Shown: in pieces, positions 2,600 through 45,231 of the stretch
How positions within the stretch are numbered: the first letter of the stretch is position 1
How the letters are laid out: each line of letters starts with the position of its first letter
NCBI RefSeq assembly: GCF_002954225.1
Contig: NZ_PPTH01000013.1
Coordinates: forward strand, 145,386-209,385
Length of the DNA stretch: 64,000 nt
Source: Arthrobacter ruber
Lineage (GTDB): Bacteria > Actinomycetota > Actinomycetes > Actinomycetales > Micrococcaceae
Direction of reading: 5' to 3'
Made by a program: the position numbers and the translations under genes
The notes under the pieces: generated by a model
Told to the model about the DNA's origin: nothing
Database searches by the model: none
The model's input: the letters and a program-made list of their open reading frames with translations, nothing else

Positions 2600-2605
2600 G
2601 GACGC

Positions 2606-3929: not shown

Positions 3930-3945
3930 ACCCACGACCCGAGGG

Positions 3946-4125: not shown

Positions 4126-4138
4126 CGTCGTCCATGGC

Positions 4139-4327
4139 CTACTTGGACGCTTCCTTGTTCACGTCCGTGGGCGAGTCGAACTCGCGGTCGGGCAGGTTGC
4201 CCAGCGTCTCGAGGACCGACTCGTCGGCGCCCTTGTCCTGGGCGTGCTTGACGAGGTCCTCCTTGGAGGCCGGGTACTCCATGCCGCCCAGTGCCTTCTG
4301 GATGTCGATCGGACTCGGATCTGCCAT
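4139..4327 (-). CDS. DUF2795 domain protein
   Basis: 62-residue protein matching the small DUF2795 family: the start PIDIQKALGGMEYPASKEDLV and the helical end with a conserved LPDREFDSPTDV segment are typical. The ATG at 4327 is preceded by AAGGAG at good spacing, which fixes the start. Function is unknown; the family is common in actinobacteria. It lies 56 bp after the GT2 gene in the same direction and could be co-transcribed with the aldehyde dehydrogenase-hldE-GT2 unit, but having its own strong ribosome binding site makes a functional link uncertain. Confidence 0.85.
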   Translation of the reverse strand: MADPSPIDIQKALGGMEYPASKEDLVKHAQDKGADESVLETLGNLPDREFDSPTDVNKEASK

Positions 4328-4383
4328 GTCGTGCTCCTTCGTGTCGGTTCGATTCCTGTGGTGCCCCCGTGGCGGGCGCACCG

Positions 4384-5247
4384 TCACTGGCCCAGGATCA
4401 CCCGGGCAGCGTCTGTGGCACGGTCGGTCACCGTGGTGGGCGCCTCGAGGTGGACGGCGCCGGACGGGATGATGCCCGCCCCGCCGTAGCGTTCCATGAC
4501 GCGCCACTGGGCGGCGACGTCCTCCCCGGCGTGCGCGGGCGGCAGGCGGTCCCAGAAGTCGAAGCCGCCGCAGTCCACGAGGGCCTCCCGGTCGAACAGG
4601 ACGCACCCTCCCACCCACGCGACGCGGTACAGCCTCCACCCGCCGGGCGGGATGCCGAGGTCGGCGGCGGCGTGCGCCAGGTTGGCGGCGTTGTGCAGCG
4701 GCCAGCGGGCGAAGCCCTCGGTGCCCGGGCGGACGCGTTCGGGCACCACCTCGTTCTCCGGCCACAGCGCCAGTGCGGTCCGCTCGTGGGGCCTGCGGTC
4801 GCCGAGGTAGGACAGGCCCTGGACCGCGGAGCCCACGAAGCCGCAGCCGGCCTCCCGCAGCGCCCTGCACATGCGGTCCAGCGAGCCGGGTTCGAGCCAG
4901 ACGTCGTCGTCGAGGAAGAGGACCAGTGGCGCGCGTGCCAGCCCCAGCAGGTAGTGCCGGTGCTCGGCGAGTCCCTTCCGCGGCAGGTGCCGTTCGAGCC
5001 GCACCTGGCGTCCCTGGGCCTCGAGGACGCGCACCATGGCCCGGACGGCGGGCTGGATGAAAGAGGCGGCATCGCCGTCGGTCTGGTCGCTGACGATCAC
5101 CCGGAAGGCGACCCCCTCCTGCGCCGCGAGGCCCGCGAGCGTCACGGCCAGCTCCGCCGGGCGCCCGAAGGACGGGATCAGCACGTCCACCGCGGGCTCG
5201 TCCGCGGTGGCGTCCAGTGCCCACTCCCCCGACCAGCGCGGGCTCAC
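4384..5247 (-). CDS. Family 2 glycosyltransferase
   Basis: 287-residue inverting glycosyltransferase with a GT-A fold. It starts with the nucleotide-binding strand VDVLIPSFGRP and carries the metal-binding acidic motif FLDDDVWLEPGSL (about residues 112-124). A later GGFDFWDRLPPAHAGEDV segment supplies the likely catalytic base region. No membrane helices are seen, so it probably acts at the cytoplasmic face on a lipid- or protein-linked acceptor. Its GTG start overlaps the hldE stop as GTGA, so the two are translationally coupled and the sugar donor may be the ADP-heptose made next door (inference). Confidence 0.85.
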   Translation of the reverse strand: MSPRWSGEWALDATADEPAVDVLIPSFGRPAELAVTLAGLAAQEGVAFRVIVSDQTDGDAASFIQPAVRAMVRVLEAQGRQVRLERHLPRKGLAEHRHYLLGLARAPLVLFLDDDVWLEPGSLDRMCRALREAGCGFVGSAVQGLSYLGDRRPHERTALALWPENEVVPERVRPGTEGFARWPLHNAANLAHAAADLGIPPGGWRLYRVAWVGGCVLFDREALVDCGGFDFWDRLPPAHAGEDVAAQWRVMERYGGAGIIPSGAVHLEAPTTVTDRATDAARVILGQ

Positions 5248-6806
5248 GTCACGTCACCGCCGAGCGGCATGGACCGGATCCTGCGGACCACCGCCGCCGT
5301 GGAACGCTCAGGGACGTAGTCGAGGATGCTGACCCTGCCCCCGCAGGCCTCGACGGCGGGTGTCTCCTCGAGCATCTGCGCGGTGTAGTCGCCGCCCTTC
5401 GCGTACACGTCCGGTTTCAGCAGGTCGATCAGCGGCACCAGGGTGTCCGTGGCGAAGACGGTGACGTAGTCCACGCAGCTCAGGGACGCGATGATGCCCG
5501 CCCGGTCCGCGATCGGGTTGATGGGACGGTCGGGGCCCTTGAGCCTGCGCACGCCGGCGTCGTCGTTCAGCGCGACCACCAGCACGTCGCCGAGCTGCTT
5601 GGCCTGGTTGAGCGAGCGGGTGTGTCCGCGGTGCAGCACGTCGAAGCAGCCGTTCGTCAGGACGATCCGCTTCCCCGCGGCGCGGTCCTCCGCCACCCTG
5701 CGCAGGAGCTCGTCCGTGTCCAGCGCCGTGTCCGCGGCCTGCTGCAGGTGGCCCGTGAGGTCTGCCGTCGTGCACACGGAGGTCCCCGGGCGGTGGACGA
5801 CGACGTCCGCGGCGGCCTGGGCGAGGTCGAGGCTCGTTGTCAGCGGCAGCCCGGCGGCCCTCGCGGCGGTGAGGCTCGCGACGAAGGTGTCCCCCGCCCC
5901 CGAGGCCTGCCGTTCCGTGGCCGGCCGGGCCCAGGTCCGGTGTTCCTCGCCGTCCTGCCCCAGCAGCACGGTCCCGTCCCGGTCCAGGGTCACGACGACG
6001 GCGCCGGCATTCGTGGCCGCGAGCAGCTCGCCGCTGCGGGCGGTGACGGCCGCGGCCCTGTCCATACGGGCGTCGAGGCGCGCACCGAGCACCTGGGCGG
6101 CCTCCTGCGCGTTCGGCGTCACGATGTCCGGGCCCAGCGCGGACCACGCCGCGGTGTCGTGCGCGTCCACGACGACGAGCGTCCCGGGGTCGAGGGTGGA
6201 CGCCTGCGCGAGCGTCGCGCGGACCTCCCCGCCGAGCGCGCCGGAGCCGTAGTCGCACACCATGACGGCGCCCGCGCCCGCGACGGCGTCGGGGATGGTG
6301 GCAGCGAGCGCGGCGGCGGCCGCTGCGGGGATCTCCTCGGGCGTGTCGTCGAGGCGGAGCATGACCTGGTCGCCGCCGAGGATCCGGTACTTGGTGGTGG
6401 TGCCGACGCGCGGGTCCTGCAGCAGGTGCGTGGTGTCCACGCCGGCGTCCTCGAGGATGCCGCGCAGCCGCCTCCCGGCGTCGTCGGTGCCGATCAGGCC
6501 GCACATGCGGACGCGGGCACCGAGCGCGGCGAGGTTCATCGCCGTGTTCGCCGCGCCCCCGGCGGCGTACTCGCGCCGGGTGATGTCCACCACCGGGGCC
6601 GGCGCCTCGCGACAGAACCGTTCGATGGTGCCGCTCCACCAGCCGTCCAGCATGGCGTCACCGATCACGGTGACGAGCGGGGCCCGGTCGGCGATGGCGG
6701 CCGGGACCCACGCCGCGAGGCCGCGGACCTCCGAGAGGTCGAGCGCCACCTCGTCGCCACCGGCGGCAGCGGCACCCGGGTGGTCCTGCACCGCGTCGTC
6801 CGTCAT
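5244..6806 (-). CDS. hldE: Bifunctional heptose-7-phosphate kinase / heptose-1-phosphate adenylyltransferase, copy 1
   Basis: 520-residue HldE-type fusion. Residues about 45-345 are a PfkB-type kinase: the AGGAANTAMN motif (82-91) contacts sugar, and GAGDTF (303-308) carries the catalytic Asp. Residues about 380-515 are a cytidylyltransferase-like domain with TNGCFD, HRGH (392-395) and KGGDY (470-474). In the known pathway the kinase makes D-glycero-beta-D-manno-heptose 1,7-bisphosphate and the second domain makes ADP-heptose after GmhB removes the 7-phosphate. All key motifs are intact. The ATG overlaps the aldehyde dehydrogenase stop (ATGA) and the stop overlaps the GT2 start (GTGA). Confidence 0.88.
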   Translation of the reverse strand: MTDDAVQDHPGAAAAGGDEVALDLSEVRGLAAWVPAAIADRAPLVTVIGDAMLDGWWSGTIERFCREAPAPVVDITRREYAAGGAANTAMNLAALGARVRMCGLIGTDDAGRRLRGILEDAGVDTTHLLQDPRVGTTTKYRILGGDQVMLRLDDTPEEIPAAAAAALAATIPDAVAGAGAVMVCDYGSGALGGEVRATLAQASTLDPGTLVVVDAHDTAAWSALGPDIVTPNAQEAAQVLGARLDARMDRAAAVTARSGELLAATNAGAVVVTLDRDGTVLLGQDGEEHRTWARPATERQASGAGDTFVASLTAARAAGLPLTTSLDLAQAAADVVVHRPGTSVCTTADLTGHLQQAADTALDTDELLRRVAEDRAAGKRIVLTNGCFDVLHRGHTRSLNQAKQLGDVLVVALNDDAGVRRLKGPDRPINPIADRAGIIASLSCVDYVTVFATDTLVPLIDLLKPDVYAKGGDYTAQMLEETPAVEACGGRVSILDYVPERSTAAVVRRIRSMPLGGDVT

Positions 6807-8215
6807 GCGCCCGCCTGCGGGGGCGCGCTGAGGTGGACCACCTTGACGAGGGCGAACTCGTCGAGCAGTTCGGGCCCGTAGCCGAAGCCCGCGCCGCTGA
6901 TGCCGCGGGGCTGGGCGGCGCCGCCGGGCGCACCGCCGAAGACGGCGTTGACCTTGACCGTGCCGACGGCCAGACCGGCGATGGCCCGCTGCGCGTGGGC
7001 GATGCCGGCCGTGAGCACCGAGGCGGCAAGACCGTAGGGCCCGCTCGCGGCCAGGCGCAGTCCCTCGTCGAAGCTGTCCACGACGGTCACGGGCGCCACC
7101 GGGCCGAAGGTCTCCTCCGTCATGACCGTCATGGCGTCGGTGCAGGAGGCGAGGACCGTTGCGGGATAGTGGGCACCGGGGCCCTCCGGCACGGCACCAC
7201 CCTCGAGGCAGGTCGCCCCGAGGCCGATCGCCTCCGCGACCTGCCCGTCGACGAGGTCGCGCATCGCGCGGTCCACGAGCGGCTGCCGGTCGTCCTCCGC
7301 GTTGCGCTTCCGTGCCTCCTCGACGAGGGCGGCGAGGAAGGGCTCGGCGATGGCCCGGTGCACGTAGATGCGTTCCACGGACGTGCAGATCTGGCCGCTG
7401 TTGGCGAAGGCACCGAGTGCTGCCTGGCCGGCCGCCCACACCGGGTCCACGTCGGCGTCGACGATCAGGGGGTCGTTGCCGCCGTTCTCCCGGATGACGT
7501 GCGCGCCGGTGAGCGCCGCGGCGCGGGCGATGCGCGCCCCGGTGGCACTGGAGCCCACGTGGGCGAAGACGTCCACGCCGGTCTCCATGGTGATCATCTG
7601 CCCCACGCCGGCTCCGCCGGTCAGGGTGGTGAGGACACCGTCGGGGAAAGCGGGCTGCAGCAGGCGCCCGAGCAGCTCGCCCACGTGGGGGCACCGTTCG
7701 CTGGGCTTGTGGATGACGGCATTGCCCGTGACGAGCGCGGCTCCGATGAGTCCGGCGGCCACGGCCACGGGGTCGTTCCAGGGCGTCAGGAGCACGGCGA
7801 CCCCGCGCGGCTCGGCGACGGTGTAGTCGGTGGCGGTGACGGCTCCGCGCAGGCTCAGCCCGCGGTGCACCGGACCGAGTTCGGCGTACTGCTCGAGCGT
7901 GGAGATCCCGGCCTCGATGCCGCCGAGCGCGTCCGCGAGCGGCTTGCCGGTCTCCCGCACGTTCAGTTCCGCGAGTTCGCGGGCTCCGTCCCGGAGGGCT
8001 GCGGCGGCGCGCCGCAGGGCCGCGCCGCGGTCGGCGGGACTCGTGGCAGCCCATTCGGGCTGCACGGTCCGTGCCAGGGTGACGGCCAGGGCCACCTGCT
8101 CACGGGCGGCGCAGGGCAGCGTGCCCACCTCGCTGCCGTCCCGGGGGTCGGTGATGGTGATGGTGTCGTCGTCCTGCACATCAAGCAGGGTGGGTGCCTG
8201 GGAGTTGATGGACAT
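6803..8215 (-). CDS. Aldehyde dehydrogenase family protein
   Basis: 470-residue NAD(P)-dependent aldehyde dehydrogenase. The catalytic Cys277 (SGQICTS) and general base Glu243 (ENGGNDP) are 34 residues apart, exactly as in the family, and the PWNDP (about 145-149) and HKPSE (169-173) motifs of the cofactor pocket are present. The usual ELGG reads ENGG here, a mild variant. The start at 8215 is chosen over an upstream ATG at 8245 because AAGGAG lies five bases before it. It heads a unit with hldE and GT2, so it may oxidise a sugar-derived aldehyde used in the same glycan, but the substrate is unknown. Confidence 0.85.
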   Translation of the reverse strand: MSINSQAPTLLDVQDDDTITITDPRDGSEVGTLPCAAREQVALAVTLARTVQPEWAATSPADRGAALRRAAAALRDGARELAELNVRETGKPLADALGGIEAGISTLEQYAELGPVHRGLSLRGAVTATDYTVAEPRGVAVLLTPWNDPVAVAAGLIGAALVTGNAVIHKPSERCPHVGELLGRLLQPAFPDGVLTTLTGGAGVGQMITMETGVDVFAHVGSSATGARIARAAALTGAHVIRENGGNDPLIVDADVDPVWAAGQAALGAFANSGQICTSVERIYVHRAIAEPFLAALVEEARKRNAEDDRQPLVDRAMRDLVDGQVAEAIGLGATCLEGGAVPEGPGAHYPATVLASCTDAMTVMTEETFGPVAPVTVVDSFDEGLRLAASGPYGLAASVLTAGIAHAQRAIAGLAVGTVKVNAVFGGAPGGAAQPRGISGAGFGYGPELLDEFALVKVVHLSAPPQAGA

Positions 8216-8348
8216 TGCGCTCCTTGATGTCGTCTGCTCGTTCACCGCGGCACGTCCTGGCGCCGGCTACTGGTCCCGTACCCGCCTCCCGCGCTTTCAC
8301 ACAGGGCGCCCGCCGTTTTCTGCACTCCGTCCGCACGGTCGTCAGCAC

Positions 8349-8357
8349 GCTTAGCAT
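8349..8357 (+). promoter_or_regulatory. Candidate -10 box and GCTTAGCA motif upstream of GT9
   Basis: TAGCAT at 8352-8357 could be a -10 box for the glycosyltransferase at 8471. It overlaps GCTTAGCA (8349-8356), an octamer also found inside the palindrome upstream of the sigma factor gene (18489-18496). The 255-bp divergent gap must also hold the aldehyde dehydrogenase promoter, which I could not place. Confidence 0.35.
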
Positions 8358-8470
8358 ATGGTGGCAGGAGGAGGAGGAGCAGCGGGTCTCCTGCGCCCGG
8401 CGAAGGCATTGACAGCGCCGCCGGCGGCACGGCCCGCGGCATCCGCGACGACACGGACGGGGAGCGATTC

Positions 8471-9628
8471 ATGCGGCAGGGAGACACCACGACGGCGGAT
8501 TTCGGCGGGCGGCAGGACACCGCGAGATCGGTGGGGCCCGTGCTCGCGCCGTTCGAGGGCGTCCGCAGGATCGCCGTGCTGCGCGGAGGCGGCCTGGGTG
8601 ACCTCATGTTCGCGATGCCCGCCCTCGCGGCCCTGAAGGACCGCTACCCGGACGCCTCCATCACCCTCCTGGGCATGCCGGGGCACGCGGCGTTGCTGGG
8701 CGGCCGGCCCGGTCCGGTGTCCGAGGTCCTGGAGCTGCCCGTCTCCCCCGGTGTCCGCCCCGGCGAGGAGGATCCCGACGCCGTGGACCGGTTCTTCGCC
8801 GGCCTCCACGGGACCTTCGACCTCGCGGTGCAGCTGCACGGCGGAGGTCGCAACTCCAACCCCTTCCTGCTGCGCCTCGGGGCCCGCCACACCATCGGGA
8901 CCCGGACGCCCGACGCCGTGGCGCTCGAGCGGACCATCCCGTACGTCTACTACCAGCACGAGGTGTTCCGCGCCCTGGAGGTGGTGGGCCTGGCAGGCGC
9001 CGTGCCGCGGGATCTCGAGCCGCGCGTGGAGGTGCTGCCCGGCGAGGTGGAGCGCGCTGCGCAGCTGACCGGCGCCCGCCCGGTGGTCGCGCTGCACCCC
9101 GGCGCCACGGATCCGCGCCGGCGGTGGCCGTCGTCGTCGTTCGCGGAGGTCGCCGTGCGCGCCGCGGCGGACGGGTGCGAGGTCGTGGTGGTCGGGGATG
9201 CCACGGACGTGCCGATGGCTGAGGAGATCGTCCGGCTGGCGCACGAGGCGGCTCCTGCGGCGGACGTCCGGTCGCTCGCGGGACGACTGACGCTCGGAGA
9301 ACTGAGCGGTGTGCTGGACCGCAGCGCGGTGATGGTCGGCAACGACAGCGGGCCCCGGCACCTGGCCCAGGCGGTCGGCACGCCGACGGTCGGCGTCTAC
9401 TGGATCGGCAACGTCATCAACGCCGGGGCGATGGGGCGCAGCCTCCACCGCGTGCACTTCTCGTGGGTGGCGCAGTGCCCGGTGTGCGGCGTGGACGTCA
9501 GGCAGGTGGGCTGGACGGCCGAACGCTGCGAGCACGATGACTCGTTCGTCGCGGCCGTCCAGCCCGATGCCGTCTACGCGGACGTGGCCGAACTCAGGGC
9601 CACGAGCCTTCTTCTGCGTGGGCGATGA
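8471..9628 (+). CDS. Family 9 glycosyltransferase (heptosyltransferase-like), copy 1
   Basis: 385-residue GT-B enzyme of family GT9, whose best-known members transfer heptose from ADP-heptose. Signatures are the N-terminal LRGGGLGDLMFAMPAL strand-loop-helix, the mid-protein VALHPGATDPRRRWP donor-site loop, and the C-terminal VGNDSGPRHLAQAVGTPTVGVYW motif. A Cys-containing segment near the end (QCPVCGVDVRQ) is unusual for heptosyltransferases and could bind a metal or be a lineage feature. GGGGAG precedes the ATG. It is transcribed opposite to both flanking heptose operons, and its last 35 bases overlap the converging SDR gene. Confidence 0.85.
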   Translation: MRQGDTTTADFGGRQDTARSVGPVLAPFEGVRRIAVLRGGGLGDLMFAMPALAALKDRYPDASITLLGMPGHAALLGGRPGPVSEVLELPVSPGVRPGEEDPDAVDRFFAGLHGTFDLAVQLHGGGRNSNPFLLRLGARHTIGTRTPDAVALERTIPYVYYQHEVFRALEVVGLAGAVPRDLEPRVEVLPGEVERAAQLTGARPVVALHPGATDPRRRWPSSSFAEVAVRAAADGCEVVVVGDATDVPMAEEIVRLAHEAAPAADVRSLAGRLTLGELSGVLDRSAVMVGNDSGPRHLAQAVGTPTVGVYWIGNVINAGAMGRSLHRVHFSWVAQCPVCGVDVRQVGWTAERCEHDDSFVAAVQPDAVYADVAELRATSLLLRGR

Positions 9629-10328
9629 CCATCTCGCGGATCTCACAGCTCTTGGGCTGTGAGAGCGCGAAGAGGATCGCCTCGGCCACGCGCTCGGGAT
9701 CGTTGAGGCGGGAATCGTCTTGCGGCTTGTACTGCTCGTCGCGGTCGTCGAAGAACCGGGTCTTCATGCCGCCGGGGATGATCGTGGTGACGCCGATCTG
9801 GCCGGCGGTCTCCGCGGCGAGGGCCTGCGTGAAGCCCATGACCCCGAACTTCGAGGCGCAGTAGGCCGTCGCGTCGCCCACGGCCTTGATGCCGAGCGTC
9901 GAGGCGATGGTGACCACGCGGCCGTGCGTCTGCTTCAGGTAGGGCAGGGCGGCACGCGCGGTGGACGCGGTGCCCATGAGGTTCACGCCGATCACCATCT
10001 CCCACTGGTCCGCGGGCACGGTGTCGAGCGCCCCGCACCGGTCGATCCCGGCCGCGGTCACGACGGCGTCCAGGCCGCCCAGGGTCTCCGCGGCCTCACG
10101 GACCGCCGCCTCCACGGCCCCGCGGTCGGCGACGTCCACCTCGAAGGCCTTGACGCCGCTCACGCGGCTGATGTCGCGGTCCAGGACCACGGGGGTGCCA
10201 CCGGCCTTGATGACGCCCTGAACGATGGCCGCGCCGAGGCCCGAGCCCCCGCCCGTCACCAGGACACGTCCCGGGTTGTACCCGGCGCCTGCCGGGGCTG
10301 CTGCCGGTTGTGCTGTGTTCTCGGTCAT
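9594..10328 (-). CDS. Classical short-chain dehydrogenase/reductase
   Basis: 244-residue SDR with the cofactor motif TGGGSGLG (25-32), active-site Ser143, Tyr156 and Lys160 (YCASK), and the PGG turn after strand six. The ATG is preceded by AAAGGA. It is the last gene of the gmhB-to-hldE unit, 63 bp beyond the hldE stop and separated from it by a 9-bp hairpin. It is too short and of the wrong subfamily to be the ADP-heptose epimerase HldD. It may modify the sugar or an acceptor, but the substrate is not evident. The 3' end overlaps the GT9 gene by 35 bp. Confidence 0.85.
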   Translation of the reverse strand: MTENTAQPAAAPAGAGYNPGRVLVTGGGSGLGAAIVQGVIKAGGTPVVLDRDISRVSGVKAFEVDVADRGAVEAAVREAAETLGGLDAVVTAAGIDRCGALDTVPADQWEMVIGVNLMGTASTARAALPYLKQTHGRVVTIASTLGIKAVGDATAYCASKFGVMGFTQALAAETAGQIGVTTIIPGGMKTRFFDDRDEQYKPQDDSRLNDPERVAEAILFALSQPKSCEIREMVIAHAEEGSWP

Positions 10329-10358
10329 GCTGTTCCTTTCGTGGTGTCGCTCCCGGCC

Positions 10359-10390
10359 GTTCTGCAGGGCCGGGCGCTGGTCTGCAGAAC
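10359..10390 (-). promoter_or_regulatory. 9-bp hairpin between hldE copy 2 and the SDR gene
   Basis: GTTCTGCAG (10359-10367) and CTGCAGAAC (10382-10390) are perfect inverted repeats around a 14-base GC-rich loop. They begin one base after the hldE stop. No T-run follows on the minus strand, so it may be an attenuator, an RNA processing or stability element, or a weak terminator that lowers SDR expression. Confidence 0.4.
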
Positions 10391-10391
10391 G

Positions 10392-11756
10392 TCAGCCCAC
10401 GCGGGCGAGCGCTGCTGCAAGCTTCGTGGTGGAGCGGGCCGGGATGTACGGGACGGTGACGGTCCTGCCACCCCAGCTGCTCACGAGGGCGGCCTCGGGC
10501 AGGTCCTCGGCGGCGTAGTCCCCGCCCTTGACCCAGATGTCGGGCTGGAGGCGGGAGATGGCGTTCTCGGGCGTCGACTCGCCGAACACGAGGACGGCGT
10601 CCACGCACTCGAGGGCGGAGAGCAGTTCGGCGCGGTCCTCCTGCTTGATGATGGGCCGGCTCTCGCCCTTCAGTCCCCGCACCGACTCGTCCGAGTTGAG
10701 GAGGACGATCAGGCAGTCGCCGAGCTGCCGTGCGGCCGCGAGCGTGCGGGCGTGGCCGGCGTGGAGGAGGTCGAAGCATCCGCCCGTCGCGACCACGGTG
10801 CCCCCGGCCTCCCGGGTGCGGCGTGCGACCTCGAGGGCGTCGATACCGTCGACGGGCAGCTGCTGCGGAGCCTCCAGGCGCCGGCCCATCGCGCCCACGC
10901 CGCCGGAGGCGAGGAAGCGCGCCGCGGCGTCGGTGGCCTGCTGGGCGGCCGCGTCGATCGGGTCCCCGGCGGCCAGGCCGAGGGCGAGCGCCGAGGCGAA
11001 GCGGTCCCCCGCACCGCACGGATCGCCGGCGCTGACGCGGGGTGCCGGGACCACCTGGGGCAGGAGTCCGGCTGCGGCCACGAGGGCGCCGTGTTCGCCC
11101 ATCGTGACGAGGACGGCCCGGCTGCGCCAGGCGGCCAGCAGGACGTCGGCGGCGGCCGCGGCGGCGCGCGTGCCCGAGCCCTGCACGTCGGCGAACCGGA
11201 GGGCCTCGCCGAGGTTGGGGGTCACGGCGGCGACGCCGGGCACGGGCTGCGCGCCGGACGGGTGGGGGTCCCAGACCACGGGGACGGAGGCGGCGAGGTC
11301 CTCGAGGCGTGCCCGCAGCGACTCCTCGGCGAGCAGCCCCCGGCCGTAGTCCGCGGCGATGATCGCATCCGCGCCGTCGAGCGCCGCCAGCATCTCCGCG
11401 GTGCAGCCGGGGGCGGGGGGCGGGGCGCATCCCTCGTCGAAGCGCACCACGGGCTGGCCGGAAGCCCGCACCCGCGTCTTGACGGGGGTCGGGGCGCCGG
11501 AGGGACCGGCGACGACGTCGATGCCGTCGAGCTCGGCGCGGAGCAGCCCCGCGGCGTCGTCGTCCCCGAGGACCGTCACGAGGACGGCCTCGTGGCCGTC
11601 GGCCTCGAGCATGCGGGCCACCAGGCCCGCTCCACCGGCGCGGCGCCGGACGGTGTCGACGTCCACGACGGGCACGGGCGCGTCGGGCGACAGGCGCCCT
11701 GCCCCGCCCGAGAGATCGGTGTCGAGCAGGACGTCGCCCACCACCACGATCCTCAT
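10392..11756 (-). CDS. hldE: HldE-like bifunctional kinase/nucleotidyltransferase, copy 2
   Basis: 454 residues, the same two-domain order as copy 1: PfkB-type kinase (about 1-290) and cytidylyltransferase domain (about 318-450) with TGGCFD, HAGH (332-335) and KGGDY (410-414). The catalytic GAGD (248-251) is present. The first PfkB signature, however, reads AGGAGLVARM where copy 1 has AGGAANTAMN, so the Asn expected to contact the sugar is missing. The kinase half may therefore be altered or weak while the nucleotidyltransferase half looks complete. The ATG overlaps the gmhA stop as ATGA, placing it in the core operon. Two HldE genes in one cluster is unusual. Confidence 0.82.
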   Translation of the reverse strand: MRIVVVGDVLLDTDLSGGAGRLSPDAPVPVVDVDTVRRRAGGAGLVARMLEADGHEAVLVTVLGDDDAAGLLRAELDGIDVVAGPSGAPTPVKTRVRASGQPVVRFDEGCAPPPAPGCTAEMLAALDGADAIIAADYGRGLLAEESLRARLEDLAASVPVVWDPHPSGAQPVPGVAAVTPNLGEALRFADVQGSGTRAAAAAADVLLAAWRSRAVLVTMGEHGALVAAAGLLPQVVPAPRVSAGDPCGAGDRFASALALGLAAGDPIDAAAQQATDAAARFLASGGVGAMGRRLEAPQQLPVDGIDALEVARRTREAGGTVVATGGCFDLLHAGHARTLAAARQLGDCLIVLLNSDESVRGLKGESRPIIKQEDRAELLSALECVDAVLVFGESTPENAISRLQPDIWVKGGDYAAEDLPEAALVSSWGGRTVTVPYIPARSTTKLAAALARVG

Positions 11757-12472
11757 CGCTGCTCCTCCTGCCGGCGGCGCAGCACTTCGGCGTCGAAGGC
11801 CCGGCAGATGGCGTGGAGGGCGATCAGGTGGCCCTCCTGGGCGTTGGCGGACTGCGCGTCGACCGCGACGAAGTCGTCCACCCGCTCCGTCAGCGGATTC
11901 GGGCCCGCCCCCGTGAGCGCCCACGTGGTGATCCCCGCGGCGCGGGCGGCGTCGGCGGCGTGCAGCAGGTTGGGGCTCTTGCCGCTCGTGCTCAGGAGCA
12001 CGAGGATGTCGCCCTCGCGTCCATGGGCGCTCACCTGCCGGGCGAACACGCGGTCGAACCCGTAGTCGTTGGCGATGGCCGTGACCGCCGAGCTCTCGGC
12101 GTGGAGCGAGATGGCCGAGAACGGCTCGCGCTCGCCGTCGAACCGGCCCACGAGCTCCGCAGTGAGGTGCTGCGCCTCGGCGGCGGACCCGCCGTTGCCG
12201 GCGGCGAGCAGGCGCTGGCCGGCCATGAGCCGGTCCGCCATCTCCACACCCCAGCCGGCGAGTGTGCCGACGTTCTGCAGCAAGGACTCGACGGCCGGGG
12301 CGACCGAGCGCAGGTGGTCCGTCACGATGCGCCGCGAGTCCGCCTCCGGGTTCGCCGGGCTCCCGGCCGCGCCGGGTGCCTGGGGGTGCCTACTGCGCAC
12401 GTGCGCCGCGGTGCCGGCGGCGGTGGTCCTGTCCGCGGATACCTCGGTGATGTCGGTGGTCTCAGTGGTCAC
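11753..12472 (-). CDS. gmhA: Sedoheptulose-7-phosphate isomerase (phosphoheptose isomerase)
   Basis: First step of heptose synthesis: isomerises sedoheptulose 7-phosphate to D-glycero-D-manno-heptose 7-phosphate in the cytoplasm. 239 residues with a SIS fold. GNGGSAAEAQH (92-102), Glu106, HAESSAV (124-130), NDYGF (135-139), the phosphate loop STSGKS (161-166) and the C-terminal QEGHLIALH (212-220) match GmhA substrate and metal sites. About 45 residues of extra Ala/Thr-rich N-terminus precede the domain. The GTG start is chosen because it forms a GTGA overlap with the upstream glycosyltransferase. DiaA-like SIS proteins are an alternative, but the neighbours argue strongly for GmhA. Confidence 0.85.
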   Translation of the reverse strand: MTTETTDITEVSADRTTAAGTAAHVRSRHPQAPGAAGSPANPEADSRRIVTDHLRSVAPAVESLLQNVGTLAGWGVEMADRLMAGQRLLAAGNGGSAAEAQHLTAELVGRFDGEREPFSAISLHAESSAVTAIANDYGFDRVFARQVSAHGREGDILVLLSTSGKSPNLLHAADAARAAGITTWALTGAGPNPLTERVDDFVAVDAQSANAQEGHLIALHAICRAFDAEVLRRRQEEQR

Positions 12473-13761
12473 AGTGCCCTGCCTCCCGTGCTCTCGAGTC
12501 GACGCGCGGCGCTCCGCCGCGCTGTGGCCGGTTCTGCGGGCGCTGCCGCGCCCAGGGCCGTCTGGTATGCCTTCTCCGTGTCGGCGGCGATGCGGCTCCA
12601 CGAGTAGCGGGCCTTCACGCGCCGGTAGCCGTTGTCGCCGAGCTCCGCGGCCCACTCCGGGTCCGAGACCACCTCGGCGATGGCGGCCGCGATGGCGGCC
12701 GGGTCCTGGGGCGGCACGTGGAGGCCGGTCTTGCCGTCCACCACGGTGTCCACGAGTCCGCCGACGGCGGCGGCGATCACGGGGACGCCGCACCCCATCG
12801 CCTCGAGCGGCACGATGCCGAACGGCTCGTACCACGGCGCGCACACGACGGCGTCGGCGCTGCGCAGGACGGCCGGCATCTCAGCGCGGGACACCTGGCC
12901 CCGCAGCACCACGCGGTCCTCCACCCCGAGCTCGGCGGCGAGCGCACGCAGGCGCCGGGCCTCCGGGTCGCCGTCAAGCCCCGCAGTGGTGCCCGGGCCG
13001 CCCACGATGACGAGTTCGACGTCGTCACGGCCGGTGGCGGCGAGCTCGCGCATCGCGCGGATGACGAGGTCCATGCCCTTGCGGGGCACGAGCCTCCCGA
13101 CGCTCACGATGCGGTGGGCCCTGCCGCGCTCCTCGACGGGTCCCTGCGGGGTGAACAGCCCGAGGTCCACGCCGCAGGGGGCGATCGAGACGCGGCTGCC
13201 GGGGATGCCCATGGCCTTGAGCTCGAAGACCTCGTCGGAGCAGGTCGCGACCACGCGGTCGGCGCTGCGGCCCACCATGGCCTCGAGCATGAGGCGCTCG
13301 GACGGGCTGGTGTCCTCCCCGCCCTGGTGGCGGCGCTTGACCGTCCCCAGGGCGTGGAAGGTCTGGACGACCTGCACGGGCCGGCCGGCACTGCGGGACT
13401 GGCGGGCGGCGTCGAGGGCGGCGATGCCGGACATCCAGAAGTGCCCGTGCACGATGTCGGGGGCGTCCTCGCCCCAGTCCCCGACGATGCCCTCTGCGAA
13501 CTCGCTCATGTAGGGCAGCAGCATGTCCTTCGGGACGCTCTGCACGGGGCCCGCGGTGATGTGCACCACCTCGAGCCGGGGGTCGGTGCGGACACGGTCC
13601 GGCAGGGCGGGATCGTCGCGGCGCGTGTACACCGTGACGTCGTGTCCCCGGCGCGCGAGGGCGAGGGACAGCTCGGCCACGTGGACGTTCTGCCCGCCGG
13701 CATCGACGCCCCCGAGGGCCGCGAGCGGGCTGGCATGCTCAGACACCATCGATATCCTCAC
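12469..13761 (-). CDS. Family 4 glycosyltransferase (GT-B)
   Basis: 430-residue retaining glycosyltransferase. The N-terminal domain has the glycine-rich acceptor loop GGVDAGGQNVHV typical of MshA and sucrose-phosphate synthase relatives. The C-terminal donor domain has VGRLVPRKGMD and the EX7E motif in EPFGIVPLEAMGCGVP. A disordered Ala/Arg-rich tail closes it. The GTG start at 13761 has GAAAGGA upstream and overlaps the stop of the preceding gene. MshA itself is possible by similarity, but its place inside a heptose operon favours a glycan-assembly role. Confidence 0.85.
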   Translation of the reverse strand: MRISMVSEHASPLAALGGVDAGGQNVHVAELSLALARRGHDVTVYTRRDDPALPDRVRTDPRLEVVHITAGPVQSVPKDMLLPYMSEFAEGIVGDWGEDAPDIVHGHFWMSGIAALDAARQSRSAGRPVQVVQTFHALGTVKRRHQGGEDTSPSERLMLEAMVGRSADRVVATCSDEVFELKAMGIPGSRVSIAPCGVDLGLFTPQGPVEERGRAHRIVSVGRLVPRKGMDLVIRAMRELAATGRDDVELVIVGGPGTTAGLDGDPEARRLRALAAELGVEDRVVLRGQVSRAEMPAVLRSADAVVCAPWYEPFGIVPLEAMGCGVPVIAAAVGGLVDTVVDGKTGLHVPPQDPAAIAAAIAEVVSDPEWAAELGDNGYRRVKARYSWSRIAADTEKAYQTALGAAAPAEPATARRSAARRLESTGGRAL

Positions 13762-14759
13762 TGCGCTTTCCTTTCTGTTGCCGCCGGGACCCGGTGCCGC
13801 AGGGGCTCGCGCGTCAGGACGTCGTCCCAGTCGGCGAGGAAACGGGCCAGTCCGTAGCGTGCGAGTGCTGCTTCCCGTGCGGCCAGTCCCCGCGTCCTGG
13901 CCTCGTCGGGATCGTCGATGAGGCGGGACGCCATCCGGACGAGGTCCTCGATGCTGGTCGAGATCGCCCCGGCCTCCGGCGGTACCGCGCGTGCGGCCTC
14001 CGTGGTCGCGAGCGCCAGCACGGGGAGCCCCACGTGCATGGCCTCCAGGAGCGAGAGCCCGAGCGAGGTCCACCGCAGCGGGTGCACGTAGGCACGCGAC
14101 CGGCCCAGGCGGGCGTGCAGTTCCCTCATGGGCAGGTCGCCGCCGATGCGCAGCTCGCCGGGACCGAGGTCCAGCGTGTCCGCGAGACGGTCCGTGCCCA
14201 TGCCGAAGACCTCCAGGGGTGCGACGCCGGCGAAGCGCGGCAGCAGGTCGGTGCCGGTGATGCGCCCGCGCCGCACGGGCTCGTTGACGACGGCGGCCAG
14301 CTGCTCGAGCTCCCCCGTGTAGAGGTAGCCGGGGTCGACGATGCCGTGCTCGATCACCGTGGTCCTCGCGACGCCGCTGTCCCAGAACAGCTCGTTGAAG
14401 TGGGTCACGTGCACCACGGGGATGTCCGTCTGTTCCGCGAGGGGATGCACCGTGCCCACGATGTCGCGGCGTGGCGTGTTGTGCTCGAGGAAAACGGCCG
14501 GCAGGTCCCGGCCGGGCGTGCGTCCGAGGAGCCGCTCGCACTCGGCGATCTCCTCGACGCGCTGCAGGACGACGACGTCGATGTCGGCGTCCGCCAGGTC
14601 CTGCGGCGCCACCTCCACGACGGACGCCGGCCAGTCCCGCCCGGCCCGGCCCAGTCCCCACGGACCGCCCTCGGGCGTGGTGGGCAGCACGTAGGTGTGG
14701 GACCCTCGCACGAAGGCGTCGGTCCACCCTCCGTGGACGTGCCATAACAGGATCCTCAT
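13758..14759 (-). CDS. Glycosyltransferase, GT4-like
   Basis: 333 residues. It opens with MRILLWHVHGGW and ends in a GT-B donor domain with the SLLEAMHVGLPVLAL motif, which carries the family's conserved Glu, followed by a typical C-terminal helix. The mid-region HNTPRRDIVGT and VTHFNELFW segments resemble uncharacterised actinobacterial glycosyltransferases found with heptose genes. No signal peptide or membrane helix. ATG overlaps the GT9 stop (ATGA) and its own stop overlaps the next GT4 start (GTGA), so it sits mid-operon. Donor and acceptor unknown. Confidence 0.82.
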   Translation of the reverse strand: MRILLWHVHGGWTDAFVRGSHTYVLPTTPEGGPWGLGRAGRDWPASVVEVAPQDLADADIDVVVLQRVEEIAECERLLGRTPGRDLPAVFLEHNTPRRDIVGTVHPLAEQTDIPVVHVTHFNELFWDSGVARTTVIEHGIVDPGYLYTGELEQLAAVVNEPVRRGRITGTDLLPRFAGVAPLEVFGMGTDRLADTLDLGPGELRIGGDLPMRELHARLGRSRAYVHPLRWTSLGLSLLEAMHVGLPVLALATTEAARAVPPEAGAISTSIEDLVRMASRLIDDPDEARTRGLAAREAALARYGLARFLADWDDVLTREPLRHRVPAATERKAQ

Positions 14760-15859
14760 CGGTTTCCCCTCGTTGTTCTGCGGCCGTCGGTGCGGCCGAT
14801 GCTACGGCGTGAGCCCAGTGACGATACTCCGGAACCGAGCCGGAGGACGGCGTCCACCACGTCCTCCGGGGAGACGGTGGACAGGCAGGGGTGGCCCTGG
14901 ACGGGGCAGATCCTGGCCCTGCTGAGGGCGCACGCCGCGCTCTGGTCCCCGAGGAGCTCCACGGGGACGCGGTACGGCGCCCAGCGGATTGCGGGGACCA
15001 CGGGCGAGAAGAGGCAGACCACGGGGGTGCCCACGGCCGCCGCCAGGTGCGCCGGGCCGGTGTTCCCCGTGATGACCACGGATGCTCCCGCGATGACCGA
15101 TCCCAGGGTCGCCAGGTCCGTCCGGCCCCCGAGATCGAGCGCCTCCGGCCCGGCGACGGTGGAGGTGAGATCCGTCTCGCTCGGTCCGCCGGTGACGACC
15201 ACGCGGAACCCTGCAGCGGTGAGGAGTTCCACGGCGGCCGCGTGGTGGAGCGGCGGCCAGGCGCGGGCCGGGACCGACGCCCCGGGATGGACGACGACGT
15301 ACGGACCCTTCCCCACGAGGTCGGAGGAATCGGCGAGGCCGGTGACCTGCAGCCGGCCGTCGTCGCCCGGCGGGAGGGCATACCCCGCGGCCTCCGCGAT
15401 GCCGAGGGCGCGCTCGGCCTCGGGCTGGTCCTCGGGGAAGTCCTCGCCGGGCTTGAGCCGCACGTCGAGGAGGGATCCGGCGTAGTCGACGGACGCGCCG
15501 GCGATCCGGCGCACCCCGGCGAGCCGGAGCAGCAGGGCGAGCGGCAGCGGCGACTGGTGGAACGAGGTCAGCAGGACCGCCTCGTCCACGTCCAGGTCGA
15601 CCACCGTCTCGTGCAGCGCTCCGACCAGCTCGGGCGTGGGCTCGGGCGGCGGGTCGACGATCCAGGGGGCCGACCACACGGCGACGTCGACGACGCCCGG
15701 GAGCAGCCGTGCGGCGGCGGCTCCCTGCGGCCCGCACAGCATGACGACGTCGTTCGGGGAGTCGCCGTGGTCGCCGGCGGCGACGGCGCGGACGGCCGGT
15801 CCGGCGAGCAGGACGTCGCCGGCACTGTCGAGGCGCGCGACGAGGACGCGCCGCCTCAC
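14756..15859 (-). CDS. Family 9 glycosyltransferase (heptosyltransferase-like), copy 2
   Basis: About 367 residues of the GT9 family. The N-terminal VARLDSAGDVLLAGPAVRA, the central VVHPGASVPARAWPP loop and the C-terminal GNTGPAHLAAAVGTPVVCLF are the hallmark motifs of heptosyltransferases. A Cys-containing segment, CALSRARICPVQGHPC, near the end corresponds in position to the one in the 8471 GT9. I chose the GTG at 15859 because it overlaps the gmhB stop as GTGA like every junction in this operon; an in-frame GTG at 15874 would add five residues. Probable role: adding heptose from ADP-heptose to a surface glycan. Confidence 0.86.
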   Translation of the reverse strand: MRRRVLVARLDSAGDVLLAGPAVRAVAAGDHGDSPNDVVMLCGPQGAAAARLLPGVVDVAVWSAPWIVDPPPEPTPELVGALHETVVDLDVDEAVLLTSFHQSPLPLALLLRLAGVRRIAGASVDYAGSLLDVRLKPGEDFPEDQPEAERALGIAEAAGYALPPGDDGRLQVTGLADSSDLVGKGPYVVVHPGASVPARAWPPLHHAAAVELLTAAGFRVVVTGGPSETDLTSTVAGPEALDLGGRTDLATLGSVIAGASVVITGNTGPAHLAAAVGTPVVCLFSPVVPAIRWAPYRVPVELLGDQSAACALSRARICPVQGHPCLSTVSPEDVVDAVLRLGSGVSSLGSRRSIGRTDGRRTTRGNR

Positions 15860-16404
15860 GGTGTCTCCGCCCACAGCGTCGCGACGGCCTCGGCGAGGTC
15901 CCCTGCGACGGCCGGAGCAGCGCGGATCTCGTCCTCGAGCGTGATGTCCGTCGGCACGAGCACGCCGCGCGCGCCGGCGGCCGCCGCGGCGCCCATGTCC
16001 GCCCCGATGTCACCGATCACCGCGACGTCGGAGGGGTCGAGGTCCAGCCGGGCGCTCGCGGCGAGGACCATGCCGGGACCGGGCTTGCGGCACGCGCAGC
16101 CGTCGTCGGCTCCGTGGGGGCACACCTCCCAGACCGCGAAGGGACCGAGCAGCTCCTCCACCCGGGCGTTGACGGCGTCGACCTGCTCCCGCGTGACGAA
16201 GCCGCGGGCGATCCCCGACTGGTTGGTGACGACGCCCACCGGGATGCCGCGCAGGCGCAGTCCGTCGAGGACCTCCCGTGCGCCCGGCATGGGCTGCACG
16301 AGCGAGGGGTTCCCGTTGTACGGGACGTCCACGACGATGGTCCCGTCGCGGTCGAACAGGACCGCCCTGGGAGCTGTCCGTGGACGATCGGCCGAAGTGT
16401 GCAT
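15856..16404 (-). CDS. gmhB: D-glycero-beta-D-manno-heptose 1,7-bisphosphate 7-phosphatase
   Basis: Third step of the pathway: removes the 7-phosphate of heptose 1,7-bisphosphate. 182 residues, a HAD-family HisB/GmhB-type phosphatase. Nucleophile Asp18 and acid/base Asp20 are in FDRDGT; VTNQSG is motif II (about 59-64); Cys95, His97, Cys103 and Cys105 (CPHGADDGCACRKP) form the zinc-binding loop that marks GmhB; Lys107 and GDIGAD supply motifs III and IV. It is the first gene of a six-gene chain with 4-bp overlaps, and its ATG faces the divergent GT9 gene across a 142-bp promoter region. Confidence 0.9.
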   Translation of the reverse strand: MHTSADRPRTAPRAVLFDRDGTIVVDVPYNGNPSLVQPMPGAREVLDGLRLRGIPVGVVTNQSGIARGFVTREQVDAVNARVEELLGPFAVWEVCPHGADDGCACRKPGPGMVLAASARLDLDPSDVAVIGDIGADMGAAAAAGARGVLVPTDITLEDEIRAAPAVAGDLAEAVATLWAETP

Positions 16405-16410
16405 AGTGGC

Positions 16411-16437
16411 TTAGTTCCCGGGAAGAAGCAGTACTAA
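16411..16437. promoter_or_regulatory. Imperfectly spaced inverted repeat between gmhB and the divergent GT9
   Basis: TTAGT (16411-16415) and ACTAA (16433-16437) lie in the AT-richest part of the divergent promoter region. GGCTTAGT here resembles the GCTTAGCA octamer at 8349 and 18489. It could be a shared regulator site or simply overlapping promoter elements. Confidence 0.25.
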
Positions 16438-16546
16438 ACACTTTCCGCCGAACTTCTTCTCCTGCTGCTCCTCCGGTTCCTTCCCGCCGCCCCGCCCCCG
16501 GACGCCCGTACCGGGACGCGGAGGAACCTCTGGCAGGATGATCGGC

Positions 16547-17557
16547 ATGACTTCCGAGGGCTCCACCGCCGCGATCGACCAGCCCGCCCCCACCGCTTCC
16601 GTGCGCATCCCGGCGTCCACTCCCGCCCCCGACGGCCGCCCGGAGATCCTCGCGCTGCGCGCGCTGAAGCTCGGCGACCTCCTCGTCGCGGTGCCTGCGC
16701 TCAAGGGCCTGCGCCGCGCCTTCCCCGAGCACCGGATCCTCTACGCGGCCCAGGAATGGCTGCGGCCCATCGTGGGCCTCACCGACGCCATCGACGACCT
16801 CCTGCCGACGCACGGCCTCGACGACCCGCTGCCCATCGAGCACGGACGGATCGACCTCGCCGTGAACCTGCACGGCAGCGGCGGCGAGAGCAGGGCACGC
16901 CTCGAGGAGATCGGCGCGAAGCGGCGCATGGGCCACCGCTCACCCGGCTGGGACGGACCCGAGTGGCGTGACGGCATCCTCGAACGCGAGCGCTGGGCCT
17001 CCCTGGTCAGCTGGCACGGCGTCCCCGCGGACCCGCTGGACTGCCGCCTGCGGGTGCCCGAGGGAAGCAGCCCGGCACCGGACGCCGTCGTCGTCCACGT
17101 CGGCGCGGCCTACGGCAGCCGCCTCTGGCCCGTGGACCGCTTCGCCGAGGTGGCGCGCACCCTGGCCGCCGCAGGGCACCGGGTCCTGTTCACGGGCAGC
17201 GGCAAGGAGCGCCCCCGGGCACTCGCCGTCGCCGATGCCGCGGACCTGCCCGAGGACACGGTGGCGGCGGGAGAGCTGCCGCTGGACCGCTTCGCCGCGC
17301 TGATCGCCGGCGCGTCCCTCGTGATCTCCGCCGACACCGGAGCCGCGCACCTGGCCTCGGCCTACACCCGCCCGTCGGTGATCCTGTTCGGCCCGGCGCC
17401 CGCCTCGGAGTGGGGACCGCCGCCCGGACCGCACACGGTGCTGACCGACGAGTCGCTGCGCCTCGGGGAGACCTTCTCGCCCACCCCGGACCCGGCCCTG
17501 ATGGCGGTCACGGTGGAGCAGGTGCTCGCCGCCGCGGCCGACCACGGCATCTCCTAG
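16547..17557 (+). CDS. Family 9 glycosyltransferase (heptosyltransferase-like), copy 3
   Basis: 336 residues of the GT9 family with LRALKLGDLLVAVPALKGL at the N-terminus, VVVHVGAAYGSRLWP in the donor loop and ISADTGAAHLASAYTRPSVILFGP near the C-terminus. Unlike the other two copies it lacks the Cys-rich segment. The ATG at 16547 is preferred to the in-frame ATG at 16538 because CAGGAT (16534-16539) plus seven bases gives the local leaderless pattern; the difference is three residues. It is transcribed away from the core operon and probably completes the same glycan. Confidence 0.85.
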   Translation: MTSEGSTAAIDQPAPTASVRIPASTPAPDGRPEILALRALKLGDLLVAVPALKGLRRAFPEHRILYAAQEWLRPIVGLTDAIDDLLPTHGLDDPLPIEHGRIDLAVNLHGSGGESRARLEEIGAKRRMGHRSPGWDGPEWRDGILERERWASLVSWHGVPADPLDCRLRVPEGSSPAPDAVVVHVGAAYGSRLWPVDRFAEVARTLAAAGHRVLFTGSGKERPRALAVADAADLPEDTVAAGELPLDRFAALIAGASLVISADTGAAHLASAYTRPSVILFGPAPASEWGPPPGPHTVLTDESLRLGETFSPTPDPALMAVTVEQVLAAAADHGIS

Positions 17558-17585: not shown

Positions 17586-17613
17586 GGCCAGGGTTTTCAG
17601 GCCAGGGTTTTCA
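17586..17613. repeat. 14-bp tandem duplication across the sigma factor stop codon
   Basis: GGCCAGGGTTTTCA occurs twice in direct tandem, followed by a partial third copy (GGCCA). The TCA of the second unit is the sigma gene stop (TGA on the minus strand), so the duplication gives a spare stop 14 bases later. Confidence 0.7.
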
Positions 17614-18435
17614 GGCCATTCGCGGCCGCGCCACCTGGACCGGCGCGGACGGGACGCCGAGCAGCCTCTTCTGCAGCTTCACCAGGATCCGCGCCAGGCT
17701 CCGCGACACCTGCATCTGCGACATCCCGAGCTCGTCGCCGATGCCCTGCTGGGTCTGCTCCATGAAGTACCGGCGGTAGAGGAGCTCCTTCTCGCCGGCG
17801 TCGAGCTCGTTCACGGCGCTGCGCAGCGAGATCATGTCGTCGCTGCGCTCGATGCCGTTGGAGTCGCTCGCGAGCGTGTCGGCCCAGGTGCGGCCCTCGA
17901 ACGGTGCGTCGAGCGAGTCGGGGCGCAGGCTCGAGTGGGAGGCCTGCGCTTCGAGGATCTTCCTCTCGGGCCACCCCAGTTCCAGTCCCAGTTCCCGCGC
18001 GGTGGGTTCGCGTCGGAGGCGCTGCGCCATCGCGGGAGCCGCGCGGGCGATCTCCGTGCGGAGGTCCTGGACGTCCCGTGGCGGGCGGACCACCCAGCAG
18101 GAGTCCCTGAGGTAACGCTTGATCTCACCGTTGATCGTGGGTACGGCGAAGGAGGCGAACGGAACGCCGAGGGTGGCATCGAAACGCTGGACCGCCTTGA
18201 TGAGTCCGAGGTAGGCGACCTGCCGGATGTCGGAGGCCTCCGGCCCCGAGGACGCGAAGGAGCGGGCCACGGACTCGGCGATCTCCATGTGCCGCAGGGC
18301 GATGTCGTCCTGCAGCGCAGCCTTCAGGGGACGACCGGGGCCTGTGCCACCCGTCGGATGACCGACGGGTTCGACCGAGGCGGCATGCGCCGGCAGGGCG
18401 TCCCGGATCGGCTCGGGGGCGGCGGTGCTCTGCAT
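17611..18435 (-). CDS. SigB/SigF/SigG-family RNA polymerase sigma factor
   Basis: 274-residue alternative sigma factor with regions 2, 3 and 4. Region 2 reads GLIKAVQRFDATLGVPFASFAVPTI, region 3 begins near EIKRYLRD and includes the VRPPRDVQDL segment typical of the SigB group, and region 4 is the helix-turn-helix QQGIGDELGMSQMQVSRSLARIL. Members direct general stress or sporulation-type regulons and are usually held by an anti-sigma factor; none is encoded nearby. The ATG at 18435 follows GGAG at six bases. The N-terminal about 35 residues are low complexity. A perfect 15-bp palindrome lies 50 bp upstream. Confidence 0.88.
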   Translation of the reverse strand: MQSTAAPEPIRDALPAHAASVEPVGHPTGGTGPGRPLKAALQDDIALRHMEIAESVARSFASSGPEASDIRQVAYLGLIKAVQRFDATLGVPFASFAVPTINGEIKRYLRDSCWVVRPPRDVQDLRTEIARAAPAMAQRLRREPTARELGLELGWPERKILEAQASHSSLRPDSLDAPFEGRTWADTLASDSNGIERSDDMISLRSAVNELDAGEKELLYRRYFMEQTQQGIGDELGMSQMQVSRSLARILVKLQKRLLGVPSAPVQVARPRMA

Positions 18436-18484
18436 GCTGTTCTCCGTCAGGCGTTGGACACTCACGCTTCCCAACAAAACATCA

Positions 18485-18499
18485 GCGTGCTTAGCACGC
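18485..18499. promoter_or_regulatory. Perfect 15-bp palindrome upstream of the sigma factor gene
   Basis: GCGTGC-TTA-GCACGC is symmetrical apart from the central three bases and lies about 50 bp before the sigma ATG, where an operator or promoter element is expected. It contains GCTTAGCA, also seen at 8349. Confidence 0.5.
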
Positions 18500-18596
18500 A
18501 AGTGCCATCGCCGTCCTGACCGATTTCAGCAGGGGTCTTTCCTTTTCCTGCCGGCACAGGTAGTGGTATCCGGCGGGCGGAGGTGCCCCGGGCACG

Positions 18597-43994: not shown

Positions 43995-44003
43995 GTGCGC
44001 GTC

Positions 44004-45167: not shown

Positions 45168-45174
45168 GATTTTC

Positions 45175-45180
45175 ACGCTA
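45175..45180 (-). promoter_or_regulatory. -10 box for leaderless sbcD mRNA
   Basis: TAGCGT, seven bases (GAAAATC), ATG at 45167 on the minus strand. Confidence 0.5.
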
Positions 45181-45231
45181 CCGCCGCACGCCGACATTCG
45201 CCGGATCAGCGCGGCGGCCTCGGGAACGGTG

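Follow-up and report, generated by a model that had tools for sequence, protein, structure and literature searches.

A predicted heptose glycan cluster of the cwg type with two HldE paralogues and an adjoining SigB-type sigma factor in Arthrobacter ruber

The lipopolysaccharide (LPS) inner core of Gram-negative bacteria is supplied by an adenosine diphosphate (ADP)-heptose pathway comprising GmhA, HldE, GmhB and HldD, together with the transferases WaaC and WaaF. In Streptomyces, ADP-heptose also serves the biosynthesis of septacidin and hygromycin B (Tang et al. 2018, as cited in PMC10221265). Closest to the locus described here is the cwg operon of S. coelicolor (SCO6179-6190), a "putative cell wall glycan" operon in the words attributed to Hong et al. 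2002 in PMC6767563. The operon is induced by vancomycin and sigmaE, and its cwgA promoter has been published (PMC6767563). Published annotations describe cwgD as a "dehydratase", cwgE as a transferase or putative heptosyltransferase, cwgH as a phosphoheptose isomerase and cwgI as a bifunctional synthase. We analyzed a stretch of 64,000 nucleotides from Arthrobacter ruber (contig NZ_PPTH01000013.1, positions 145,386 to 209,385; referred to as the window), which, judged by gene content and order, carries a form of the actinobacterial cwg cluster that is specific to its lineage.

Gene content was established by profile searches, which were also used for checks across the 3.66 Mb genome. GmhA, GmhB and HldE, all recognized in an earlier sequence-only reading of the window, gave significant profile matches, and the motifs of GmhA and GmhB are conserved. 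Three GT9, two GT4-like and one GT2 glycosyltransferase, an aldehyde dehydrogenase (ALDH) and a short-chain dehydrogenase/reductase (SDR) had been listed as well and were all confirmed (PF01075 E-values of 3e-21 to 3e-28 for the GT9 proteins). That list was correct as given, but it missed a second HldE (HldE1), a DUF2795 gene and a sigma factor gene. The unit therefore extends beyond the bounds of 4384 and 17557 originally drawn, to 4139 on the DUF2795 side and to 18501 at the sigma factor gene (Table 1).

The closest solved relatives of GmhA are the phosphoheptose isomerases 5i01 and 1tk9, and the segments AE-(L/M)-x-GRF and Q-E-x-H-x(4)-H are conserved. GmhB is most similar to the D,D-heptose 1,7-bisphosphate phosphatase 4pnh and retains the motif CPH-x(4-5)-C-x-CRKP. 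According to profile, structure and motif comparison, isomerase, kinase, phosphatase and nucleotidyltransferase functions are all encoded with their catalytic motifs, and the predicted route is thus complete. Genome-wide searches yielded one strong GmhA, two strong HldE and three GT9 matches, every one of them in the cluster. The best genome match to the HldD 6-epimerase (TIGR02197) reached 90 bits compared to a cut-off of 275. Because of these copy numbers and the missing HldD, the route to nucleoside diphosphate (NDP)-D-glycero-D-manno-heptose is predicted to be encoded once in the genome, within the cluster. An HldD-dependent L,D-heptose was rejected, as no epimerase scored above the cut-off in the genome. 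We also rejected a GDP-heptose route (HddA/HddC), since each of the two kinases forms one protein with a TIGR02199-type domain; a guanylyltransferase-type nucleotidyltransferase (HddC) was not found among the cluster genes. The locus thus shares the families of the isomerase, kinase, phosphatase, adenylyltransferase and GT9 enzymes with the LPS inner-core pathway. It differs in the absence of HldD above cut-off, the presence of two HldE, a monoderm host and the lack of an LPS acceptor.

For the comparison with Streptomyces the published cwgA promoter was sought in a genus suspected to be Streptomyces; of its 150 genomes, two (G488 and G505) contain the promoter with a single mismatch. The distance between the promoter end and the start codon in G488 is 147 bp, exactly as published. 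Downstream come genes for an epimerase, a carbamoyltransferase, GT2, GmhB, GT9, GT4, GT4, GmhA, HldE2, GT9, GT2 and GT2, and a polysaccharide deacetylase gene lies divergently on its other side. The cwg annotations given in PMC5839063 fit this series. By promoter and gene order the locus corresponds to the 12-gene cwg operon together with its neighbor sco6178, and this match is the reason for labeling G488 as Streptomyces. In G505 a cwgA-type sigmaE promoter (locus L138, around 1578-4622) is followed by a GT2 and one GT4 gene without heptose genes, an apparent case of decay or rewiring of cwg.

The window contains counterparts of cwgD to cwgI in an order identical to that of the Streptomyces locus L139, the one with the cwgA promoter at 147 bp (GmhB, GT9, GT4, GT4, GmhA, HldE). 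The counterpart of cwgJ is GT9c (44% identical in L139), which is divergent in the window and part of the operon in Streptomyces. In addition to this core, the window has the SDR and a second module consisting of ALDH-HldE1-GT2-DUF2795 and GT9a. The sigmaE promoter of Streptomyces is replaced by a SigB-like promoter and an adjoining SigB-type sigma factor gene.

A comparison across relatives, which the earlier reading had suggested as a check, showed that the core GmhB-GT9b-GT4b-GT4a-GmhA-HldE2-(SDR)-GT9c keeps its order in loci from the genus, the family and many families of the class; the SDR is part of this core outside Streptomyces. Matches to the HldE nucleotidyltransferase (adenylyltransferase) domain occur in 36 of 39 genus genomes, of which 32 have two strong copies, in 44 of 151 family genomes and in 45 of 198 class genomes. 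Among the named relatives are Arthrobacter, Pseudarthrobacter, Paenarthrobacter, Sinomonas, Curtobacterium, Rathayibacter and Clavibacter as well as Microbacterium, Agromyces, Brevibacterium, Lentzea and Saccharothrix. Given this spread, heptose chemistry is, as far as gene content tells, not rare in Actinobacteria, and the view that Gram-positive examples are few does not hold. The host is a member of the Micrococcaceae; in HldE2 it comes closest to the named relatives Arthrobacter sp. SX1312 (91% identity), A. agilis (89%) and A. echini (83%).

Some loci deviate from this arrangement. Extra genes separate the two modules in L015-L018, L024 and L027, with both modules retained. The insertions, examined in other Arthrobacter genomes, were rejected as clues to the product because their cargo is unrelated to it; in L015, L016 and L027 they carry CstA, ArsA ATPase, an oxidoreductase, haem uptake and HtaA. 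GT9a and GT9c are jointly absent, with both HldE kept, in L064, L065, L072, L074, L083, L084, L091 and L111, which belong to some Arthrobacter, Pseudarthrobacter and Paenarthrobacter. A plasmid origin was rejected, the cluster being shared by no plasmid record.

The features that make the window version unusual are the second HldE and the wiring to a sigma factor. HldE1 matched PRK11316 (363 bits), TIGR02198 (232 bits) and TIGR02199 (177 bits). For HldE2 the PRK11316 match (277 bits) covers both domains, and its kinase domain scored 150 bits with TIGR02198. Both proteins align with Burkholderia cenocepacia HldA and with a solved cytidylyltransferase-type domain. HldA (4e84) is the nearest solved kinase of HldE1; the AlphaFold model of HldE2 (mean predicted local distance difference test score 83.7) likewise has HldA (4e84/4e8z) as its nearest solved structure. 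In a tree the two form separate clades of 56 (HldE1, support 0.99) and 89 sequences (HldE2, support 0.82). HldE1, HldE2 and E. coli HldE are about equidistant from one another at roughly 35% identity.

The catalytic motifs GAGD and HxGH are conserved in nearly all members of both clades. In the kinase motif GGAAN the Asn, present in HldE1, HldA and E. coli HldE, is replaced by Leu in 87 of 89 HldE2 sequences. The Asn of the nucleotidyltransferase motif TNGxFD, retained in HldE1, is Gly in all 89. At the STTR5 position HldE1 has His or Arg, whereas 80 of 89 HldE2 sequences have Arg ("GRSTT" in the consensus). An Arg at this position has been linked to the use of cytidine and uridine triphosphates (PMC11573728). 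The HldE2 clade thus mostly shares the Arg of the STTR5-type heptose nucleotidyltransferases (PMC11573728, PMC11461863), but HldE2 of the window, which has both the Leu and the Arg, reads YIPARSTT instead of (F/L)xxGRSTT, and its nucleotide use is a prediction only.

Strong HldE1 kinase matches were found in 16 of 198 class genomes and HldE2 matches in 44 of 198. HldE1 is nested within the HldE2 distribution in 16 of 16 cases; since it never occurs without HldE2, it depends on the core. The simplest reading of this pattern is that HldE1 represents a second branch supplied by the same GmhA and GmhB. Across the compared loci ALDH and GT2 are optional partners of HldE1. More tentatively, the two paralogues might be ancient, share the GmhA/GmhB supply and yet yield two activated heptoses for separate GT9 enzymes of a heptose-rich envelope glycan, with HldE1 forming ADP-heptose and HldE2, given its Arg and its Leu, CDP- or UDP-heptose or another isomer. 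In this scheme the glycan would be made under a dedicated SigB-family sigma factor from a leaderless transcript.

The sigma factor comprises regions 2, 3 and 4 (PF04542, PF04539 and PF04545). Its TIGR02980 score of 204 bits (cut-off 234) is the top match in the genome, followed by a runner-up with 130 bits, and its adjacency to the cluster is conserved in 48 named loci. A SigB-like element precedes gmhB in 43 of the 48 named loci with an adjacent sigma factor gene and in 2 of the 29 without one; shuffling gave an expectation of 2.8 in 77 loci. Within the Microbacteriaceae alone the association is 7 of 8 versus 2 of 14 (Fisher p = 0.0015). In 44 loci the spacer invariably measures 15-16 nucleotides, and nearly all of them have the -10 box 9-10 nucleotides ahead of the first start codon (ATG or GTG). 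The distance in the window is 9 nucleotides, which implies a leaderless mRNA. The pattern GTTTAG-N14-19-GGGAAC occurs exactly once in the genome. Operon 2 is preceded by GTGTGAA-N12-GGGTAC, the sole match within the window (0 in 100 shuffles). Its association with the sigma factor gene at orthologous loci is weaker than that of the gmhB element (18 of 27 with the gene adjacent versus 2 of 23 without). The sigmaE-type pattern AAC-N15-19-CGTC is absent from the regions preceding gmhB and ALDH of the window, and sigmaE control of these operons was rejected; SigB-like promoters are found instead. Together, these patterns suggest that the cluster has a stress sigma factor of its own, or one closely tied to it, and that its transcript is leaderless; the adjacent sigma factor is the presumed regulator.

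Based on these results we propose that the cluster, as a variant of the cwg type, makes NDP-activated D-glycero-D-manno-heptose and builds it, under stress regulation, into a glycan or glycolipid of the cell envelope. We assign this reading a probability of about 0.7. GmhA would isomerize sedoheptulose 7-phosphate, the kinase domain of HldE would phosphorylate the heptose phosphate at C1, and GmhB would remove the C7 phosphate. The C-terminal domain of HldE would then add the nucleotide to give NDP-D-glycero-D-manno-heptose in the cytoplasm. The three GT9 enzymes are expected to transfer heptose, while GT4a, GT4b and GT2 may add the remaining sugars or prime the acceptor, and SDR and ALDH may modify a sugar or aglycone. 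The adjacent sigma factor would read operon 1, and probably operon 2, from the SigB-type promoters. Because of these promoters and the adjoining sigma factor gene, stress is the probable condition for synthesis of the glycan. The envelope location is suggested by the Streptomyces precedent and the glycosyltransferase content. With a complete route and three GT9 enzymes, a heptose-containing envelope glycan is the most economical interpretation, close to the cell-wall polymer, glycolipid or glycoprotein of the earlier reading; a wholly undescribed arrangement is not supported, as cwgD-J of Streptomyces share the core.

Several observations weigh against this proposal. For most of the proteins the scores do not reach the NCBIfam equivalog cut-offs set for the Gram-negative enzymes, which leaves the exact substrates as predictions, and with Leu in place of the GGAAN Asn the sugar substrate of HldE2 could differ. 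The cwgA epimerase, the cwgB carbamoyltransferase and the GT2 enzymes cwgC, cwgK and cwgL of Streptomyces have no counterparts in the window, with the exception of one GT2 in operon 2; the cluster is therefore a variant of the cwg type and not "the cwg operon". No genes for a flippase, polymerase, ligase or exporter are found within the cluster, and a surface location is accordingly only presumed. In the putative gmhB promoter the -10 box is GGGAAC, where SigB promoters usually have GGGTAC/T. Finally, the compared loci are related, and the p-values of the association overstate their independence.

The main competing explanation is a soluble heptose-containing product, intracellular or secreted, which could be an oligosaccharide or a small molecule such as a secondary metabolite or a glycoside that protects against stress. 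The missing exporter, flippase and ligase fit such a product, as does the absence of a clear transmembrane segment from every cluster protein (a borderline hydrophobic stretch in ALDH was taken as part of the catalytic fold). In addition, the best family of GT4a, although below cut-off, is MshA, which makes a soluble glycosyl-inositol, and the septacidin and hygromycin B pathways show that Streptomyces employs ADP-heptose for small molecules. There, according to the cited account, the heptose likewise comes as ADP-heptose in a Gram-positive actinobacterium and feeds an antibiotic, whereas the window combines six glycosyltransferases with conserved chromosomal synteny. The cluster lacks the biosynthetic core of any known antibiotic, its own core is conserved over many families, unlike patchy secondary metabolism, and the Streptomyces homologue is induced via sigmaE by cell-wall antibiotics. 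We therefore consider a soluble product unlikely.

Another explanation is that HldE2 and its neighbors use a different sugar phosphate, either a heptose isomer or a hexose, and that only HldE1 makes canonical ADP-heptose. The replacement of the two Asn residues in HldE2, both retained in HldE1, and the lower TIGR02198 score of its kinase domain (150 versus 232 bits) would be explained in this way. It is HldE2, however, and not HldE1 that always accompanies GmhA and GmhB and that is the sole HldE in Streptomyces-type clusters, and its fold is nearest to HldA with GAGD and HxGH intact. A different substrate thus appears rather improbable. A relic of an LPS core or a recent transfer from Gram-negative bacteria, suggested by the fact that heptose chemistry is best known from the LPS core, can be dismissed almost entirely, as the genes share the host composition, the actinobacterial HldE1 and HldE2 clades are separate from E. 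coli HldE and the cluster is conserved throughout the genus.

Both cwg and the use of ADP-heptose in Streptomyces were already known. What is new is how widely the core occurs in the class, the additional, nested HldE module and the coupling to a sigma factor; we found no paper describing any of these in the open literature, subscription papers lying outside the search. The open-access literature yielded nothing on heptose in cell walls of Arthrobacter or related genera or on the cluster outside Streptomyces, nor did we find a report of an isolated cluster glycan. A paper on an Actinoplanes exopolysaccharide was rejected as a parallel, since it involves no heptose genes. The human innate receptor ALPK1 responds to NDP-heptoses as agonists, and the question has been raised why many organisms without LPS make them (PMC11573728). 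The spread of the core over many families, together with the tightly wired version in soil Arthrobacter, offers simple, non-filamentous hosts for isolating the glycan. Direct genetic handles exist in HldE1, with its nested distribution, and in the sigma factor with its near-unique promoter.

The positions of all features are given in Table 1. Operon 1 has the order gmhB-GT9b-GT4b-GT4a-gmhA-hldE2-SDR, with overlapping starts and stops except at the SDR junction. In operon 2 (ALDH-hldE1-GT2-DUF2795) starts and stops overlap throughout. The GC content at third codon positions of the cluster genes is about 0.9, and their codon composition matches the host's.

Table 1. Features of the heptose cluster and other genes of the window (window coordinates).
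Feature	Position	Strand	Remarks
DUF2795 protein, 82 residues	4139..4387	-	last gene of operon 2; overlaps GT2 stop codon; PF11387 E 2.3e-23
GT2 family glycosyltransferase	4384..5247	-	operon 2; PF00535 E 7e-11
HldE1, predicted second bifunctional heptose-7-phosphate kinase / heptose-1-phosphate nucleotidyltransferase	5244..6806	-	operon 2; PRK11316 363 bits
ALDH, aldehyde dehydrogenase	6803..8245	-	first gene of operon 2; PF00171 E 3e-105
Putative SigB-like promoter GTGTGAA-N12-GGGTAC	8278..8302	-	precedes operon 2
GT9a, heptosyltransferase-family	8471..9628	+	divergent from operon 2; PF01075 E 3.5e-28
SDR, short-chain dehydrogenase/reductase	9594..10328	-	last gene of operon 1; PF00106 E 6e-40
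HldE2 (cwgI type), predicted bifunctional heptose kinase / nucleotidyltransferase	10392..11756	-	PRK11316 277 bits, E 2.5e-82
GmhA, sedoheptulose-7-phosphate isomerase (cwgH type)	11753..12472	-	TIGR00441 E 1e-42; start approximate
GT4a, MshA-like GT4 (cwgG type)	12469..13761	-	PF00534; TIGR03449 248 bits, cut-off 462
GT4b glycosyltransferase (cwgF type)	13758..14759	-	PF00534 E 8e-9
GT9b, heptosyltransferase-family (cwgE type)	14756..15874	-	PF01075 E 1e-22
GmhB, heptose 1,7-bisphosphate 7-phosphatase (cwgD type)	15856..16404	-	first gene of operon 1; PRK08942 E 4e-33
Putative SigB-like promoter GTTT-N16-GGGAAC	16414..16439	-	-10 box 9 nucleotides before gmhB ATG
GT9c, heptosyltransferase-family (cwgJ type)	16538..17557	+	divergent from operon 1; PF01075 E 2.7e-21; TIGR02193 86 bits
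SigB/SigF/SigG-type sigma factor, presumed cluster regulator	17611..18501	-	TIGR02980 204 bits
AcrB/AcrD-type transporter, 1086 residues	24572..27832	+	PF00873
SbcC/SbcD-like pair	40941..45512	-	AAA_23/SbcC Walker B; calcineurin-like phosphoesterase
ResIII-type helicase protein	57983..59761	-	PF04851

Three further observations were made outside the cluster. The AcrB/AcrD-type transporter of the resistance-nodulation-division family is encoded in a monoderm host and adjoins a malate:quinone oxidoreductase gene. The SbcC/SbcD-like pair combines a Walker B-containing protein with a phosphoesterase, and the ResIII-type helicase protein may belong to a restriction or defence system.

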